The notes beneath the pieces were generated by a model that saw nothing but the letters and a program-made list of their open reading frames with translations, had not been told where the DNA came from and made no database searches. From Rikenellaceae bacterium (GTDB taxonomy: Bacteria > Bacteroidota > Bacteroidia > Bacteroidales > Rikenellaceae), in the NCBI GenBank assembly GCA_031286025.1, contig JAITVB010000235.1, forward strand, positions 1-15,820: 15,820 bases of DNA, given 5' to 3'. This document shows positions 9,067 to 15,820 of this stretch, one piece after another. Position numbers and translations under genes: made by a program. Numbering within the stretch: the stretch's first letter is position 1; each line of letters begins with the position of its first letter.

Positions 9067-9113
9067 GCCGGCTTCGACCGCCGCTTTTTAAAAAATGGGG
9101 GGGCGAAGCCGGC
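9067..9113. terminator. Inverted repeat between convergent genes, possible bidirectional terminator
   Basis: GCCGGCTTCG (9067-9076) and CGAAGCCGGC (9104-9113) form a perfect 10-bp stem. The 27-base loop contains TTTTTAAAAAA and a run of seven G's. The repeat lies in the 89-base gap between converging genes, as expected for a shared terminator, but no T-run follows the stem on either strand. A dispersed palindromic repeat is the alternative. Confidence 0.5.
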
Positions 9114-10095: not shown

Positions 10096-11850
10096 TTATT
10101 GTTGTTTTTTGAGATTGTCGTAACGGTCGATCGCGGCTTGCGGGCCGTAGGTGTACCAACTGTAACCGTTGCGGCGTTCGTAGCCGATTTCGGCGAGCGA
10201 GTATTTTTTGATGCCGTCGCGGTCGGAGAAGAAAGGACGGTTATCGTTCAATTCGTAGAAACGGGCCCAGATCTGCGGAGCGGCCGGGTCGGCCACTGCC
10301 TGGCGGTCACGGCGTCCTTCTGCGTTGGGCAGGGCCTCGATCTTGACACCGTGGATCGCCGCTTTTTTCATCCAAGCGATGGCGGCGTCGATCGCACGAG
10401 TCACCTCGGGCGACGGATTTTCGAGGTCCATCAGCAACATCACGATGCCCACCGATTCGCTGCCGCTGAGCGAGGGTAACTCATACGACCGTGCGCCGGC
10501 CGGGGCCAGGGTGTTCTCGTCGTGTTGGGCGCACCAGGCGGTGAGTACGCCTTTCTGGACATACTGCGTCTTGAGGATGCACTGCACCCCGCGGTCGAAC
10601 GCTTCGGCGCAACGTTGGCGCAGGGCCGGATCTTCGACCACTTTGGCGAATACTTCGTCGCCCCGGGCGATCTCATTGAGGAAGGTCATCGTGTTGACCA
10701 TTGCGTTGTCGTTGTAGGTGATGTGGGTGGCGTAGCCGCGGGCGTCGGGGTAGTACTGCGGCCAACCCCCGTTGGGATATTGCGCGGCCAGGAGATAGTC
10801 CATGCCCCGCAACACGGCCGACTGATACTCGGGATTGCCTGTCTGGTTAAAGACTTTCGAGAGGAAAGTCATTTCCATGAAGGTGGCGTCGTTGTCGGTC
10901 GTGCAATCGCTGTTCCCCTTGTCGGCGGCCACATTCTTTTTGTCGTTGGCGCTCAGCGGGAAGTGCATGTCGATGTTCTTCGGCCATCCGACCGCGTCGC
11001 GTTGGTAGAGAAGCACGTTGGCGGCGATCGCAACGGCTTCGTCCGTGCCGTACCATTCGTCGGGCATCCGTTCGGCCACGGCGCCCCAAGGACGGAAGCA
11101 GGTCGTTTCAGTCAGTTGGTCGGCCAACGGCAACTCGTTTTCGCGGATGCCCCCGGCGACCATCCGGGCGACGGTGAAGGCGCCGAATTCGCACAGGTGG
11201 GCGTCGTCTTCAAGCCCTTCGGGATATTTGGCCGCTTGGCCCGGTTCGAGCCACATGTATAGTTTCTTGGATTCGCGCGAACCGACTTTGAGCAGCAGCT
11301 TCACCGTACGGTCGGCCAGGTCGATCACCGGCACGTCGAGGGCTTTGCCCACTTCCGCGACCGCTTTCGAGTAGTCGGCGTGCATATCGACCGGAATACC
11401 CGCTTCGGGATGCCGACGTTTGGCAACAGGGGTCAACAGCACTGGCGTAGCTCCCTTTTCGCGTGTTTCGTTGACATAGGCGGTCAGGTATTCGCGGAAG
11501 GTACTTTCCGCATCGGTGTATTTCGCCGGATCGTCGGCCTTGCTGTCGACCCCGCCGAACTGAATGAGGACATAGTCGCCCGGCTTCAACTTACCGGCCG
11601 TTTTCTTCCAGTGGCCTTCCTCGTAATAGGTTTTCGAACTGCTGCCGGCCACGGCGGCATCGATCACGCGCACACTGTCGGCATTCAGGAAAGTCTGAAG
11701 CATCTGGCCCCAACCGCGCATCGGGGTACCGACGGTGTCGGCCACGCCGACGGTCGAGTCGCCGAGGGTATAGACATTGATTTTCGACGACTGGCAGGCC
11801 GAAAGTCCGGCTGCGGCCATCAGGCAAAGGAGTAGATGTTTGATCCGCAT
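10096..11850 (-). CDS. Fusion lipoprotein: CE12-like SGNH esterase plus PL10 pectate lyase
   Basis: This 584-residue protein has a lipoprotein signal, MRIKHLLLCLMAAAGLSAC, with Cys19. Residues ~24-245 resemble rhamnogalacturonan/pectin acetylesterase (CE12): nucleophile Ser32 in LGDSTVG, block II AVAGSSSKTYYEEG, TPVLLTPVAKRRHP, and the Asp215/His218 pair in DDAHLCEFGA. The block III segment, normally FGHND, reads FGGVD (98-102), so the oxyanion-hole Asn is missing. Residues ~250-584 are a PL10 pectate lyase: EAVAIAANVLLYQRDAVGWP, PNGGWPQYYP, ITYNDNAMVNTMTFL, SYELPSLSGSESVG, IWARFYELND. PL10 cleaves de-methylated homogalacturonan by beta-elimination. The fusion would pair deacetylation with chain cutting at the cell surface or in the periplasm. 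It follows the hydrolase gene by 32 bases and precedes the pectinesterase by 4. Confidence 0.9.
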   Translation of the reverse strand: MRIKHLLLCLMAAAGLSACQSSKINVYTLGDSTVGVADTVGTPMRGWGQMLQTFLNADSVRVIDAAVAGSSSKTYYEEGHWKKTAGKLKPGDYVLIQFGGVDSKADDPAKYTDAESTFREYLTAYVNETREKGATPVLLTPVAKRRHPEAGIPVDMHADYSKAVAEVGKALDVPVIDLADRTVKLLLKVGSRESKKLYMWLEPGQAAKYPEGLEDDAHLCEFGAFTVARMVAGGIRENELPLADQLTETTCFRPWGAVAERMPDEWYGTDEAVAIAANVLLYQRDAVGWPKNIDMHFPLSANDKKNVAADKGNSDCTTDNDATFMEMTFLSKVFNQTGNPEYQSAVLRGMDYLLAAQYPNGGWPQYYPDARGYATHITYNDNAMVNTMTFLNEIARGDEVFAKVVEDPALRQRCAEAFDRGVQCILKTQYVQKGVLTAWCAQHDENTLAPAGARSYELPSLSGSESVGIVMLLMDLENPSPEVTRAIDAAIAWMKKAAIHGVKIEALPNAEGRRDRQAVADPAAPQIWARFYELNDNRPFFSDRDGIKKYSLAEIGYERRNGYSWYTYGPQAAIDRYDNLKKQQ

Positions 11851-11882: not shown

Positions 11883-12920
11883 TTACGGTTTCACAGCAGA
11901 ATGGGGAGGGGATGAGGAGAGATCGCTCCCGAACGTTTTGCAGAGGAAAGCGGCCATCAGTTCGATCGTCGGCCCGAACCATGGATCGAAGAGCCAAAAC
12001 GGATGGGGGGTATCGGGAATCGTGTGCAACTCATAGGGGATGTCGAGAGCCTTCATCCGTCCGACCTGCACCGTCAGGCCGGGATGGTCTCGGTTCGAAC
12101 TGTTGATGAAGCAGACTGGCGCCGACGCTAGCGAAAGCTGCCGGGCGGGCGAAACGGCCTGCCACACGGCGGGACTCTCTTCGTAGGTGCCGCCCAACCA
12201 ACGGGCGTCGCCGGGCAATTCCCGTCCCGCCTCACGGGCTTTGCGCGCACGTTCGGTGCGGGCCGGGACGGCCAGGTCGGCCACGCCGTCGAGGTCGACC
12301 ACAGCCTGCACCGTGCTCGGAATATGGGAGTAGCCGCCCTCGCCCTCATAATGGGGATTGCCGTTCGTCGCGCCTGCCAGGTCGGCCAACAGTCCCCCGG
12401 CCGAGTCACCCGAAACAGCGATCCGATTCGGATCGATCCCCAAGTCGGCGGCATGGGCCCGCACCCAACGGATGGCGGCTTTTACGTCATAAATAGCGGC
12501 GGGATATAACGCCTCGGGGCTCAGCCGGTATTCGACCGGGATGCACACATAGCCCCGTGTGGCCAGGGCCGCGGCCATCGGCGCCTCCATCGACCGGTCG
12601 CCCGAATTCCATCCGCCGCCGTGGATCATCAGCAGAGCGGGGTACGCGAGACGGTTATCGGGTCGGTATATGTCCAAGTGAAGTTCGCGCCTGCCGTAAG
12701 GCGTGTCGGAAAGGACAGAGTAAACGATATCTTGCTTGACAACGATTCCGGCCGGGATTACCAACGGCACAATTCGGATCCGTGGATATTTCTGTATTTC
12801 CTGTCGGTAAGCGCTCCAAACGGTAAAGGACGTGTCGCGCGGAATCCCTTCGAAAAATTCCTGCGCCGACAGCATCCCGGGAAAGAGGAACAGCAGCACC
12901 AACCCCAGGTGGGTTTTCAT
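11883..12920 (-). CDS. Exported alpha/beta-hydrolase esterase, first gene of the pectin operon
   Basis: This 345-residue protein has a signal peptide, MKTHLGLVLLFLFPGMLSAQ. The fold signatures are HGGGW (100-104, oxyanion hole), GDSAGG (171-176) with nucleophile Ser173, and the C-terminal catalytic His306 in PDTPHPFW. Asp278 in SSNRDHPGL is the likely acid. It resembles the hormone-sensitive-lipase/BD-FAE-type carbohydrate esterases found with pectin or xylan genes, so it probably removes acetyl, methyl or feruloyl groups from pectin. The actual ester is not deducible. I chose the ATG at 12920 because the signal peptide starts there. The frame stays open to 13025, but that extension covers a repeated hairpin motif and would bury the signal peptide. 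A terminator-like hairpin sits 10 bases before this ATG. Confidence 0.85.
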   Translation of the reverse strand: MKTHLGLVLLFLFPGMLSAQEFFEGIPRDTSFTVWSAYRQEIQKYPRIRIVPLVIPAGIVVKQDIVYSVLSDTPYGRRELHLDIYRPDNRLAYPALLMIHGGGWNSGDRSMEAPMAAALATRGYVCIPVEYRLSPEALYPAAIYDVKAAIRWVRAHAADLGIDPNRIAVSGDSAGGLLADLAGATNGNPHYEGEGGYSHIPSTVQAVVDLDGVADLAVPARTERARKAREAGRELPGDARWLGGTYEESPAVWQAVSPARQLSLASAPVCFINSSNRDHPGLTVQVGRMKALDIPYELHTIPDTPHPFWLFDPWFGPTIELMAAFLCKTFGSDLSSSPPHSAVKP

Positions 12921-12924
12921 GGCG

Positions 12925-12946
12925 AAAAAAGGTGCCTCCCGGCACC
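12925..12946 (-). terminator. Terminator-like hairpin just before the hydrolase start
   Basis: In transcript sense GGTGCC, loop GGGA (a GNRA tetraloop) and GGCACC make a 6-bp GC-rich stem (12946-12931), followed at once by six T's (12930-12925), CGCC and the ATG. This is the classical form of an intrinsic terminator, so it may attenuate the operon or hide the ribosome site. Confidence 0.5.
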
Positions 12947-12952
12947 CGGAGA
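12931..12952 (-). repeat. Hairpin motif copy A
   Basis: In transcript sense this reads TCTCCGGGTGCCGGGAGG and then CACC. It matches copy C (13396-13417, other strand) at 20 of 22 bases, including 15 consecutive identical bases, and is the 3'-proximal copy in the pectin-operon leader. Confidence 0.75.
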
Positions 12953-12983
12953 CAGTTTGCTTTATCCAGACCAAGATACGAAA

Positions 12984-13005
12984 GGCACCGCTCCCGGTAC
13001 CCGGA
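12984..13005 (-). repeat. Hairpin motif copy B
   Basis: In transcript sense this reads TCCGGGTACCGGGAGC and then GGTGCC. On the + strand, 13 of 14 bases at 12992-13005 match 12937-12950 of copy A. It folds as GGTACC over GGTGCC with a 6-base loop; relative to copy A one stem pair changes from G-C to A-U and one from C-G or U-A type to U-G, so pairing survives. Confidence 0.6.
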
Positions 13006-13156
13006 ATTTTCACCTTGTTTTGCATAAGGCAACAATTTTGAGATAAATGGTTGAAATCGAGGTGTTATAGAAGCGAAAAAATGGCGAGTGGTTATGGATA
13101 AGTTACAGCTTAGTCGCTGTGAACCACAATGTTTTGCACTACTTCAAACAACTGTA

Positions 13157-13187
13157 CAAAGATAGTCATTCGCCGGAATTAACCTAA
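13157..13187 (-). promoter_or_regulatory. Candidate promoter of the pectin operon
   Basis: On the - strand TATCTTTG (13164-13157) is a perfect -7 box. TTAG (13187-13184) lies exactly 19 bases upstream and matches three of four bases of TTTG. The transcript would start near 13150, giving a leader of ~230 bases with motif copies B and A. Confidence 0.5.
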
Positions 13188-13372
13188 CTACTCTTGTCTA
13201 TAATTTTTAAGGAATCGGCAAATGACAGAAGTCAAAAATGGTTAAGGCGATTAAATTCCGATACGATATTTTTCAGTAGTCCGGTTTTCTGTGTACCGGT
13301 TTATCCCCTTGTCGAGGCCATATTTTTGTCATTTTACCTGAAATTTACAAGCGGATGTTTGTTTTTAATGTG

Positions 13373-13380
13373 TACCTTTG
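13373..13380 (+). promoter_or_regulatory. Candidate LamG-gene -7 box
   Basis: TACCTTTG is a perfect TAnnTTTG box, 105 bases before the LamG-gene ATG. No TTTG lies at the standard spacing. The transcript would start near 13387, so motif copy C would be at the extreme 5' end of the message. Confidence 0.45.
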
Positions 13381-13395
13381 ACAAAATATAGCCCC

Positions 13396-13417
13396 TCCCC
13401 GAGTGCCGGGAGGCACC
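13396..13417 (+). repeat. Hairpin motif copy C, inverted relative to A and B
   Basis: The stretch reads TCCCCGAGTGCCGGGAGG and then CACC on the + strand, in the same sense relative to its downstream gene as A and B are to theirs. GTGCC and GGCAC form a 5-bp stem with loop GGGA. Unlike copy A, no T-run follows directly. Bases 13403-13417 are the exact reverse complement of 12931-12945. Confidence 0.75.
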
Positions 13418-13474
13418 ATCCCTTTCCGGTTTTTCACGATACATTCGCAACACTCACTTATCTAACCTAATATC

Positions 13475-13489
13475 ATGAAGCCCCAATGA
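13475..13489 (+). other. Four-codon upstream reading frame overlapping the LamG start
   Basis: ATG AAG CCC CAA TGA encodes MKPQ, and its stop overlaps the ATG of the LamG gene (13486) in an ATGA arrangement. Such overlap allows reinitiation or translational coupling. It may equally be chance. Confidence 0.3.
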
Positions 13490-15820
13490 AAAAAAATTTT
13501 CGACCCGACGCCCGTTGTTTTTGCTACGGGATCTTGGGATTGATGTTTTCGCTTGTTTTCCCCGTTATGCAAAGTGCGGCCCAGGTCATGGCAGGATTAC
13601 CGCCGATCGGGACTGCAGGACAGTTTCCGGTCCCCTCGTCGGGGCTGCTGTTTTACCTCTCGGGCGACCACGGTTTCCGGGCCGACAGTGCGGCGGGCCG
13701 TGCCGAACCCAATTTCCGGAACGGGGTGAGCATCGTTCCCGGCGGTTTCCGGGGCTCGGCGATCCATTGTGAGGACGGGCGGCAACAATTTTCGTACTGG
13801 GCTCCGGGGAACATCTACGCCCAACGCGGAACGCTCGCCTTTGCCTGGCGCGGGGCACAACCGTTTACGCAGACCGAGTTTCCGCTTTTCCGCGTGGGTT
13901 ATGCCGACCATTCGAGTTGGGACATGGTGTGGTTGCGGATTGACTATAACGGTCACGGCTTTGATGCCTTTGTCACCGACGCCAACCTGGCGCGCGTGCG
14001 CGTTTCGTATACGATGCCCAAACTGCCCGCTCCCGACGAGTGGACCCACTTTGCCCTCACCTGGGACGAAACCGAAGGCATCCGCTTTTATGTCAACGGC
14101 CAAAAGGTGGCAGAAAACAAGACGATCGCCGTGCTGAACACCGGTCTCGACCAGTTCGGCCCCCACTCGCGCATCATCAGCCCGTGGCAGGTGCAGAGCG
14201 CATACAACTTTATCCGCGGCGGCGAGATCGACGAAATCCGCATCTACGACCAGGCGTTGGCTGACGGCCAAATCGCCATCCTTGCCCAAGGTAACGCATC
14301 CGACATAAAACCGTTCATGCGCAATCCGAGGCAAAAACAATGGATAGACGAGTGGGCGCTACGCTATGGATGGAACCGTCCGGGCGACCTGCCCTCCTGC
14401 CTGGCCGACAACGAAACGGTCATCCGAAAAGTGCAGATCAACGACGTTTACGACCAGAAACGTTGGTGGTGGAAAGGCACCGACGGTATTCGCGAAACCA
14501 CGTGGCCGGGGGTCTACAACCGCTCGCGCCTGCCGGGCCGCAACGACTATTTCCAACTGCCCGACTGGGATTGCTACACGACTTCCGGCAAACAAGTGCG
14601 CTTCCTGATGCCCGACGAACCATGGAACTACGTCGAGGTCGCCGGTGCAGCCTACGGTACGTTGGCCGTTTCATCGAGCACCGAAGGCACCGGCGCGACA
14701 ACATTCTCGACCCGACTCGCCAATCAGGAAAGAACGTTCCATAAAACGGCCTCACCCGTCACCGGAAAATCTCTCGTTTTTACCAATGACGCACAGGAAA
14801 CCCCGATCGGCGAACTGAACGCCTATTATATCCACCCGGGCAAAGCCCCGTCGGGCGTCGCCACGCTGAGTTACACCCTCACCTCACGCGGCAACCATAA
14901 TAACGAAAACATTTTCGATATCGAAGCCTATATCGCCGGCCGTTACCCCGCCGACGAACGCTCGGTGATGCTCGCTACCCCCGGTGCAAACGGAGGCCGC
15001 AGCGGACGCCGGGGCGATATGCCGTCTTACAACAACACTCTGGCTCCGCACCGCGCCGTGCCGGCCGATCGTATGCCGATCGTGCATGTGATTATCCCGA
15101 GTGATTTTCGCCCCACGGGGTTGGTCTACGAAGAGGACGCCCCGCTCATGGCCCGGGGCGCGTCCTATACCTGGCGCAACATGAACGGCGGCTTGGACGG
15201 CATCCGCATCGCCCTGCCGGCGCTTGACGTCGCCCCGACGATGGACGGCTGCTTCCCGATCAACATCCAGGTCAAAGACCCGATCTGGCCGTTGCGCAAT
15301 ATGTTTGACTTTACGTTTTCAGTCAAGCCGGGCCAAGGGCGGGTGCTCTACCTCGACCTGCGCGACCGCATCTTACCGGATGACAAACCGCTCTACCTGA
15401 CCTTAGCAGGTTCAGACCCCGATTTTTCGCCCGTCGACCTCGAAGGCACTCGCATTGATCTGATCTTTAAATCATTGGACGAGGCGAAGAAGGAACACGT
15501 CGCCGACCGTTTTACCCAGGTGCGCGACACCTACGCGATGATCGTCGAGGAGGGCACCAACAGCAAGCGCCTGAACAAATACAACCAGTTCGAAGCCGAC
15601 ATGACCGACCTGCTGCGCATTGAGCCGAACCATTGGCCGGGTTACAATTACTGGTACATCTACAACTCGGAACAGGTGAAACCGACCGTCGAACCGCTCG
15701 TCGTACCCGACAGTGTGCCGCGTTGGGCCTTCCTGCAACTCGAAAATTTGAAACGCCACAAATATTTCGTCGAGTATTATATCGATAAGCGCCAGATCGC
15801 TTCCGGCCAGTTCGGCGGCG
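13486..15820 (+). CDS. Large exported LamG-domain protein (partial, runs off the right edge)
   Basis: From the ATG at 13486 the frame is open for 778 codons with no stop before the window ends, making it the longest gene here. Residues 1-33 look like a signal peptide (MKKNFRPDARCFCYGILGLM through QSAAQ). Residues ~48-265 form a LamG/concanavalin-like jelly roll: GLLFYLSGDHGF at the start, EWTHFALTWDETEGIRFYVN near 185, and GEIDEIRIYDQALADGQI at 246-263. Such domains usually bind carbohydrate or protein. I do not recognise the ~500 residues after it; they are rich in Trp, Tyr and Asp, with notable segments KRWWWKGTDGI and NHWPGYNYWYIYNSEQ. No transmembrane segment is seen after the signal. Divergence from a pectinase operon with a shared leader motif suggests a role in binding or processing pectin or rhamnogalacturonan; no catalytic residues can be assigned. 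Confidence 0.8.
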   Translation, partial: MKKNFRPDARCFCYGILGLMFSLVFPVMQSAAQVMAGLPPIGTAGQFPVPSSGLLFYLSGDHGFRADSAAGRAEPNFRNGVSIVPGGFRGSAIHCEDGRQQFSYWAPGNIYAQRGTLAFAWRGAQPFTQTEFPLFRVGYADHSSWDMVWLRIDYNGHGFDAFVTDANLARVRVSYTMPKLPAPDEWTHFALTWDETEGIRFYVNGQKVAENKTIAVLNTGLDQFGPHSRIISPWQVQSAYNFIRGGEIDEIRIYDQALADGQIAILAQGNASDIKPFMRNPRQKQWIDEWALRYGWNRPGDLPSCLADNETVIRKVQINDVYDQKRWWWKGTDGIRETTWPGVYNRSRLPGRNDYFQLPDWDCYTTSGKQVRFLMPDEPWNYVEVAGAAYGTLAVSSSTEGTGATTFSTRLANQERTFHKTASPVTGKSLVFTNDAQETPIGELNAYYIHPGKAPSGVATLSYTLTSRGNHNNENIFDIEAYIAGRYPADERSVMLATPGANGGRSGRRGDMPSYNNTLAPHRAVPADRMPIVHVIIPSDFRPTGLVYEEDAPLMARGASYTWRNMNGGLDGIRIALPALDVAPTMDGCFPINIQVKDPIWPLRNMFDFTFSVKPGQGRVLYLDLRDRILPDDKPLYLTLAGSDPDFSPVDLEGTRIDLIFKSLDEAKKEHVADRFTQVRDTYAMIVEEGTNSKRLNKYNQFEADMTDLLRIEPNHWPGYNYWYIYNSEQVKPTVEPLVVPDSVPRWAFLQLENLKRHKYFVEYYIDKRQIASGQFGG

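Follow-up and report, generated by a model that had tools for sequence, protein, structure and literature searches.

Three copies of a short hairpin-forming motif stand in the 5′ leaders on both arms of a divergent pectin locus in a Rikenellaceae bacterium, raising the question of whether they mark this locus or something broader. The window, meaning here the whole stretch of 15,820 nucleotides analysed (contig JAITVB010000235.1, assembly GCA_031286025.1), carries copies A and B ahead of an esterase gene and copy C ahead of a LamG-domain gene (Table 1). As first described, copies A (12931-12952, minus strand) and C (13396-13417, plus strand) form an inverted repeat with 20 of 22 bases identical (91%), and all three copies are oriented along their own genes. 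The hairpin of copy A reads GTGCC-GGGA-GGCAC (12932-12945) and is followed by C and six T, a terminator-like site. Copy B, the direct tandem partner of A at a distance of 53 nt in the esterase leader, has the stem GGTACC/GGTGCC with the 6-nt loop GGGAGC (12984-13001), and no -7 box of its own was recognisable. The predicted hairpins comprise 7 pairs at -13.2 kcal/mol in A (z -2.0) and 8 pairs at -13.5 kcal/mol in B (z -1.9). The further claim that the stem is kept despite sequence changes stands for B, with its A-U and U-G pairs and two more loop bases, but is ambiguous for C because the 32-nt stretch of that copy prefers to pair CUCCCC with GGGAGG (z -0.8). Copy C also matches TTTG-N-GTGCCNNRAGGCAC exactly.

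Relative to the esterase start taken at ATG 12920, to which codon scoring and a signal peptide (MKTHLGLVLL...) both point, the hairpins of copies A and B end 11 and 63 nt upstream. The LamG start at ATG 13486 was picked by its signal peptide, codon scoring alone giving 13567. Just ahead of it, the stop codon of a mini-ORF (MKPQ*, 13475-13489, plus strand) shares bases with the LamG start (ATGA), and the two may be translationally coupled. Elsewhere in the window, 10096-11850 (minus strand) encodes a single protein in which a GDSL esterase is fused to a pectic acid lyase, and a 23-nt inverted repeat at 9067-9113, between the converging L,D-transpeptidase and pectinesterase genes, is probably a two-way terminator.

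Table 1. Leader elements, promoter boxes and adjoining genes in the window.
Feature	Position (nt)	Strand	Details
Copy A, leader element	12926..12969	-	R1 model 35.7 bits, R2 35.3 bits; fold
-7-like box TATCTTGG (5/6)	12971..12978	-	Upstream of copy A, 25 nt from hairpin
Copy B, leader element	12979..13022	-	R2 35.2 bits; fold
-7 box TACCTTTG (6/6)	13373..13380	+	22 nt ahead of copy C hairpin
Copy C, leader element	13377..13422	+	R1 28.2 bits, R2 28.4 bits; hairpin 13403-13416
BD-FAE type esterase, behind A/B	11883..12920	-	Pfam PF20434 on longer ORF to 13025
LamG-domain secreted protein, behind C	13486..15819	+	PF13385; runs off contig

A 16-base core, allowing up to three mismatches, has two matches in the window, namely A and C (B is too divergent), versus 0.20 in shuffles. 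Chance is untenable as an explanation because of the genome-wide counts: a 15-base core with up to two mismatches has 32 matches in the home genome, whereas its reversed control has 5; the 32 include false copies, some inside genes. A covariance model from 23 copies located 43 home places at E ≤ 1, and a model rebuilt on 43 copies returned at least 54 at E ≤ 1 and at least 48 at E < 0.1 among the best 150 of 824 first-look candidates. Twenty more contigs were examined, nine for weak matches and eleven others, and the eleven yielded one weak match (E 0.69). With the 1.72 Mb home assembly in 261 contigs and 77.5% complete, the true copy number is probably higher. The 48 copies at E < 0.1 group into 41 sites, and 7 of these hold tandem pairs, all direct, with units of about 42-53 nt. 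An invertible promoter (inverton) was rejected, since among home places only the window has a close inverted pair (443 nt); on C109, the only further contig to carry copies in both orientations, about 3 kb separates them. Exact matches numbered zero for a 24-base pattern in named genomes and for a 19-base pattern in viral contigs, collections from which records near the home genome may be missing, and a search of phage DNA for the element gave no match.

The preliminary description had named a self-complementary dispersed repeat as its rival, and this was at least half right: the copies are dispersed, partly tandem and lineage-specific. Carried further, that rival holds that the element is neutral or selfish DNA resembling REP, MITE or mobile-promoter sequences, surviving best in promoter-side gaps, with a hairpin that serves its own copying and not the genes. 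The tandem and antisense copies at home fit such a repeat, which we regard as a real possibility, if a doubtful one.

Location relative to genes was assessed with a simple codon-usage gene caller on 472 kb, mostly contigs chosen for carrying copies. A same-strand gene lies downstream at 33 of the 41 sites versus 46% of random noncoding places (binomial p 6e-6), and 27 sites fall within 100 nt of a same-strand gene start versus 22% (binomial p 2e-9), p-values that are overstated because copies are non-independent and most contigs were chosen for having copies. An opposite-strand gene comes next downstream at 7 sites, one of them in a convergent gap, and one further site lies inside a gene on the other strand, making 8 of 41 that are antisense or without a sense gene. 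Sense sites outnumber antisense ones 13 to 6 in codirectional gaps (p 0.17); the 17 sites in divergent gaps are uninformative on orientation. The leader placement initially proposed, in one strand sense and near start codons, is seen at most sites but not at those eight. Convergent gaps hold 1 of 41 sites versus 17.5% of random noncoding places, which supports the leader placement and counts against the selfish-repeat reading.

The copies are locked to a promoter as well as to a strand. PMC7366714 gives TAnnTTTG as the box consensus of sigma-ABfr-type promoters. In 19 of 48 home copies a perfect (6/6) box of this form has its end 14-34 nt upstream of the hairpin, compared with 2.6% of random noncoding and 6.1% of gene-upstream places. 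At 5/6 or better the figures are 33 of 48 versus 14.6% and 16.4%. Second members of tandem arrays sit behind the first and usually have no perfect box of their own. Home copies show no conservation beyond about 15 bases upstream of the -7 box end, although this 5′ edge is uncertain because T-richness before the box is also seen in generic promoters; for that reason we rejected the idea that conservation starts exactly at the box. In the part of a related genome (G024) that was compared, usable relatives were found for 108 of 390 home genes, four of them element genes; the G024 purE is preceded by a similar -7 box but lacks the element.

What do the marked genes have in common? Within 260 nt downstream of home copies lie 29 genes, two of them in the window. 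Their Pfam names include PdxA, ECF sigma, sulfatase, TonB, 3′-5′ exonuclease, POT transporter, class IV aminotransferase, Asp/Glu racemase, thymidylate synthase, an HU-like domain, a phage-integrase-family (XerC/D-type) recombinase, ObgE, PIF1-like helicase, OmpA, PurE, MutS domain V, RsmH (MraW) and thioesterase; 6 of the 29 had no Pfam match. A pectin-specific leader that coordinates both arms of the window locus, as had been suggested, could draw on the three copies in two leaders and on another LamG-domain gene with the element in its leader (contig C229, L072:106-883). It is already contradicted by the 27 other genes that carry the element without a common theme, and a second genome has it on different genes; we consider this reading hardly credible and rejected a pectin regulon. 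The phrase "both arms of a pectin locus" describes the place of first sighting, not what the element marks.

That second genome (G070), from the same family, shows the same architecture. Seventeen copies with an exact core were read in 15 short model-chosen stretches, out of 34 core matches. The -7 box is perfect in 13 of the 17 and at least 5/6 in 16; for 11 of the 13 perfect ones, the distance from box end to hairpin is exactly 23 nt. Behind the box follow CAAAGT, N, ATTCATGCGA and GTGCCGCRAGGCAC. Conservation of the core and CAAAGT is partly built in because copies were chosen by model and core pattern, whereas that of ATTCATGCG is not built in by selection. The linker behind the box varies in sequence and hardly in length, and position -11, although flanked by near-invariant bases, is free (A7 C6 G3 T1). 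Such a mix of free and invariant positions is unlike the plain decay of recent copies, and this, together with the same box spacing in two genera, argues against a purely selfish repeat. On the other side, none of the 11 readable partial G070 proteins matches any of the 29 home target proteins, as a selfish repeat would lead one to expect. No clear target-site duplication was seen by eye in G070.

G070 also brings in the possibility of an intrinsic terminator or attenuator, whose hairpin and T-run would stop transcription within about 40 nt to give a tiny RNA or a switch. A T-run (at least four T in six) follows 13 of 17 G070 hairpins, a second -7 box of at least 5/6 stands behind 12 (6/6 in 9), and copy A in the window has its six T after the stem. 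At home, however, just 7 of 43 copies, or 10 in another counting frame, have the T-run, and a second box of at least 5/6 follows 8 of 43 (6/6 in 2); the G070 T-run may instead be a T-rich stretch ahead of a second promoter. We judge a terminator improbable.

The proposal of an RNA element was examined on the GUGCC/GGCAC main stem in 49 home copies, collected by a sequence-only model that was itself trained on copies found with a stem model. The 228 scorable cells comprise 175 Watson-Crick, 22 G.U, 17 A.C and 14 other combinations, so that an RNA-type strand bias is not significant (p 0.52); the 24 best copies hold 9 G.U and 3 A.C (p 0.15), and 25 core-search copies hold 7 and 5. In 43 copies, pairing is slightly above shuffled alignments (88.3% vs 86.3%; 10 of 500 shuffles as high), and 38 of 500 shuffles reach the observed stem covariation. 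With no strand bias in the home main stem and the eight antisense or sense-less sites described above, RNA function is no more than a possibility, and the missing bias agrees with a selfish repeat.

The picture differs for a second helix. The inner arm, made up of the four bases ahead of the hairpin, differs between versions in step with the loop: UCCG/CGGR at home, UGCG/CGCR in G070 and UCGG/CCGR in genus g19 and much of genus g7, with ACGG or another first letter in the inner arm of many G063 copies. Combining the inner helix with a shortened stem gives an eight-pair pseudoknot. In 72 distinct rows it is 93.4% paired, where shuffles reach 84.1% and slid versions no more than 43.6%; double-changed cells number 41, versus 14.3 in shuffles. 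Inner-helix covariation across genera reaches 0.294, compared with 0.152 shuffled and at most 0.056 slid. Pair 9-19 is CG in 56 rows, GC in 11, UG in 2 and unpaired in 3; pair 10-18 is CG in 41, GC in 26 and unpaired in 5. Two of the five cross-genus measures do not exceed shuffles, namely pairs with a double change (4 vs 2.6; 64 of 500) and further pair types (11 vs 10.7; 279 of 500). Rows from other genomes were selected with the hairpin pattern, so that their outer stem is set in advance but their upstream arm is not, and home rows were kept only with at least four of five outer pairs (34 of 43, copy B of the window being among those dropped). Overall the inner-helix evidence is good and not overwhelming, because the double changes amount to about two events. 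The preliminary description had named covarying stems with related genes downstream as support; the inner helix does covary across genera, but the downstream genes are unrelated.

Within the home genome the inner helix does not covary. The T/C-R pair is T-G in 26 rows, T-A in 7, C-G in 7 and C-A in 4, with no pairing-type association (p 0.42), and the other two inner pairs are each C-G in 43 of 49 rows, only one differing row keeping a standard pair (T-G). For the outer pair next to the stem, the letters look independent by eye on the alignment, and we rejected it. Separately, the base before TCC in home copies goes with the identity of the third loop base (C: 16 G, 1 A; T: 15 G, 9 A; p 0.03), an association that the proposed pairing leaves unexplained. 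Nested prediction on single strands gives the outer hairpin (-9.7 to -12.2 kcal/mol, z -1.8 to -2.6).

A DNA palindrome would also give cross-genus covariation of the inner helix, and the element could be a DNA operator of a global regulator, bound as a duplex palindrome at a set distance behind the -7 box, with the arm changes reflecting altered specificity. The set distance and palindromic core suit an operator, matched arm changes between genomes fit dimer half-sites, and CAAAGT could serve as an extra contact. Against it, the inner T stands opposite G in 31 distinct rows and opposite A in 22; T-G is a legal RNA pair but makes an imperfect DNA palindrome, which suits RNA better. Nor do the targets form a coherent regulon. 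We therefore hold an operator to be quite unlikely.

Beyond these two genomes the distribution is patchy, with its own version per genome, as would be expected of a selfish repeat. For RibF, the nearest named match is Rikenellaceae bacterium Hm464_bin19 at 50% identity; its genome returns the same places as G024, which points to Rikenellaceae as the family. The first model gave weak matches at E ≤ 0.1 in 5 of 60 relatives. The second gave some match at E ≤ 0.5 in 30 of 37 genomes (the top two at 4e-4 and 6e-4), almost all of them no better than chance, and among 268 same-family genomes reached E ≤ 0.003 in at least nine others, G070 standing out with at least 17 matches, both counts taken from the best 24 candidates per genome. 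The core GTGCCNNRAGGCAC is present in 95 of the 268, mostly once or twice, like the control; its count rises to 53 in G063 and 34 in G070, with 13 in each of G026, G096 and G085 and 12 at home, and the controls give 0 in all six. In g7 (G063, G026 and G096; 32 copies) and g19 (G109 and G121; 5 copies), none of the 37 copies has a perfect box at the home/G070 distance and 6 have a 5/6 box, about the random level; their flanks are other, often longer repeats. In G063 and G026 (L323-L342) the core is embedded in longer repeats with flanking homology and without perfect -7 boxes, a further point for the selfish-repeat reading. In an order-wide sample of 393 genomes, which excludes G070 and the g7 genomes, TTTG-N19-26-core is present in 9: the home genome has seven occurrences and the remaining eight have one or two each, with none for the controls.

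Other repeats came to light in passing. G649 and G513 (family f42, outside the home family) have TCGG, one base and GTGCCCGGAGGCAC behind TTTG, in two places each. G024 contains a different dispersed repeat of at least 70 nt (L250-L309, e.g. L265:14401 and L307:15564) that begins GGGGTTTCGGAATACTTTTG and whose arms appear to change together (GCGG/CCGC, GTGG/CCAC), and G174:C37:42232-42407 holds GTGCCGCAAGGCAC six times in one spot, mostly in 27-nt steps.

The element is a dispersed, promoter-locked leader repeat, and to judge by its layout it is probably the first ~40 nt of many transcripts, the transcription start here being placed from the -7 box. The explanation we favour, at a probability of roughly 0.48, is a short interspersed promoter-locked leader repeat that is constrained and acts at the transcript start of many genes. 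A typical copy would begin at or near the predicted start of a sigma-ABfr-type promoter (TAnnTTTG) and run through CAAAGT, a spacer (A-rich at home, NATTCA in G070), the inner arm (UCCG at home) and R to GUGCC-GGRA-GGCAC. Copies would spread as DNA, bringing promoters with them or settling at promoters in mobile-promoter-like fashion; the first about 40 nt of the mRNA would fold, the inner arm pairing with the hairpin loop as an H-type pseudoknot or an alternative hairpin. Some factor would then recognise the element, most likely at the transcript 5′ end, with effects on stability, early termination or translation. That something recognises it is suggested by the uneven conservation, with invariant blocks beside free positions, and by the fixed spacing. 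Judged from the letters, the spread resembles that of mobile DNA, whereas the signs of recognition are the uneven conservation, the set spacing and the matched arms. Accordingly, about half of the weight goes to a constrained element at the transcript start, the rest mainly to a passenger repeat and less to an operator or terminator.

A bolder version, unlikely in our estimation, is a new compact pseudoknot class at the 5′ end of dozens of Rikenellaceae mRNAs, a mobile promoter-leader tag read throughout by one trans-acting factor, on account of which the inner helix would change in concert in all copies within a genome. Should the transcribed element prove active, a single 5′ structure would be common to dozens of unrelated genes of a Bacteroidales lineage, and another genus has rewritten that structure at an unchanged promoter distance. 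Repeats serving as global transcript tags could then be studied in a manageable case, within a phylum where leaders are poorly understood. Even as nothing more than a repeat, the element remains promoter-locked and lacks the usual transposase.

Several known systems share features with the element. CsrA/RsmA leader hairpins carry GGA in the loop and occur in repeated copies near the start codon. The home hairpin loop likewise contains GGA and its copies are repeated near start codons, but the G070 loop is GCRA, and we rejected a CsrA target, PF02599 not being found in the 77.5% complete home genome. Correia and NEMIS-type MITEs are dispersed and foldable, can be co-transcribed with the neighbouring gene and act in leaders; the element is also dispersed and foldable, but is much shorter and by eye has no terminal inverted repeats or clear target duplication. 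It sits in 5′ leaders as Rfam cis-regulatory elements do, although Rfam 15 gave no match in the window at gathering score or in 12880-13500 at E ≤ 1, and only one sub-threshold match in 13 related loci (Thr_leader, opposite strand).

Structured RNA candidates from the human microbiome, according to PMC8040213, include palindromic ones and HMP2_39, a 49-bp leader candidate found mostly in Alistipes; HMP2_39 is described as lying upstream of ribosomal protein L20, unlike the element, the two being set apart by descriptions and not by sequences, and the element may still match one of the candidates. A literature search by titles and abstract openings brought up nothing recognisable as the element, which may still be published; the accessible portions of PMC7366714, PMC8049555, PMC8040213 and PMC5771137 do not describe it, the candidates of PMC8040213 being compared by description only. 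REP/REPIN sequences, according to PMC8049555, are short palindromic extragenic repeats in tens of copies, some paired, with RAYT transposases. The element is likewise a short palindromic extragenic repeat in tens of copies, some of them paired, and differs in being promoter-locked, with pairs that are direct tandems. The Y1 (RAYT, or REP) transposase PF01797 was not found in any of the 17 genomes searched, the home genome among them at 77.5% completeness, and we therefore rejected a RAYT-driven REP; as far as this one carrier goes, the negative result also weighs against a selfish repeat.

Putative mobile promoters are homologous promoter stretches dispersed within one genome. The element resembles them as a lineage-specific short stretch with a core promoter box before unrelated genes of one genome: judged by the definition of a dispersed stretch with a core promoter ahead of non-homologous genes, it qualifies, with the box present in 19 of 48 home copies and 13 of 17 in G070, and the box may move together with the repeat. 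Unlike putative mobile promoters, however, the element has its shared sequence mainly behind the -7 box, in the leader, and its palindromic core is reworded between genera.
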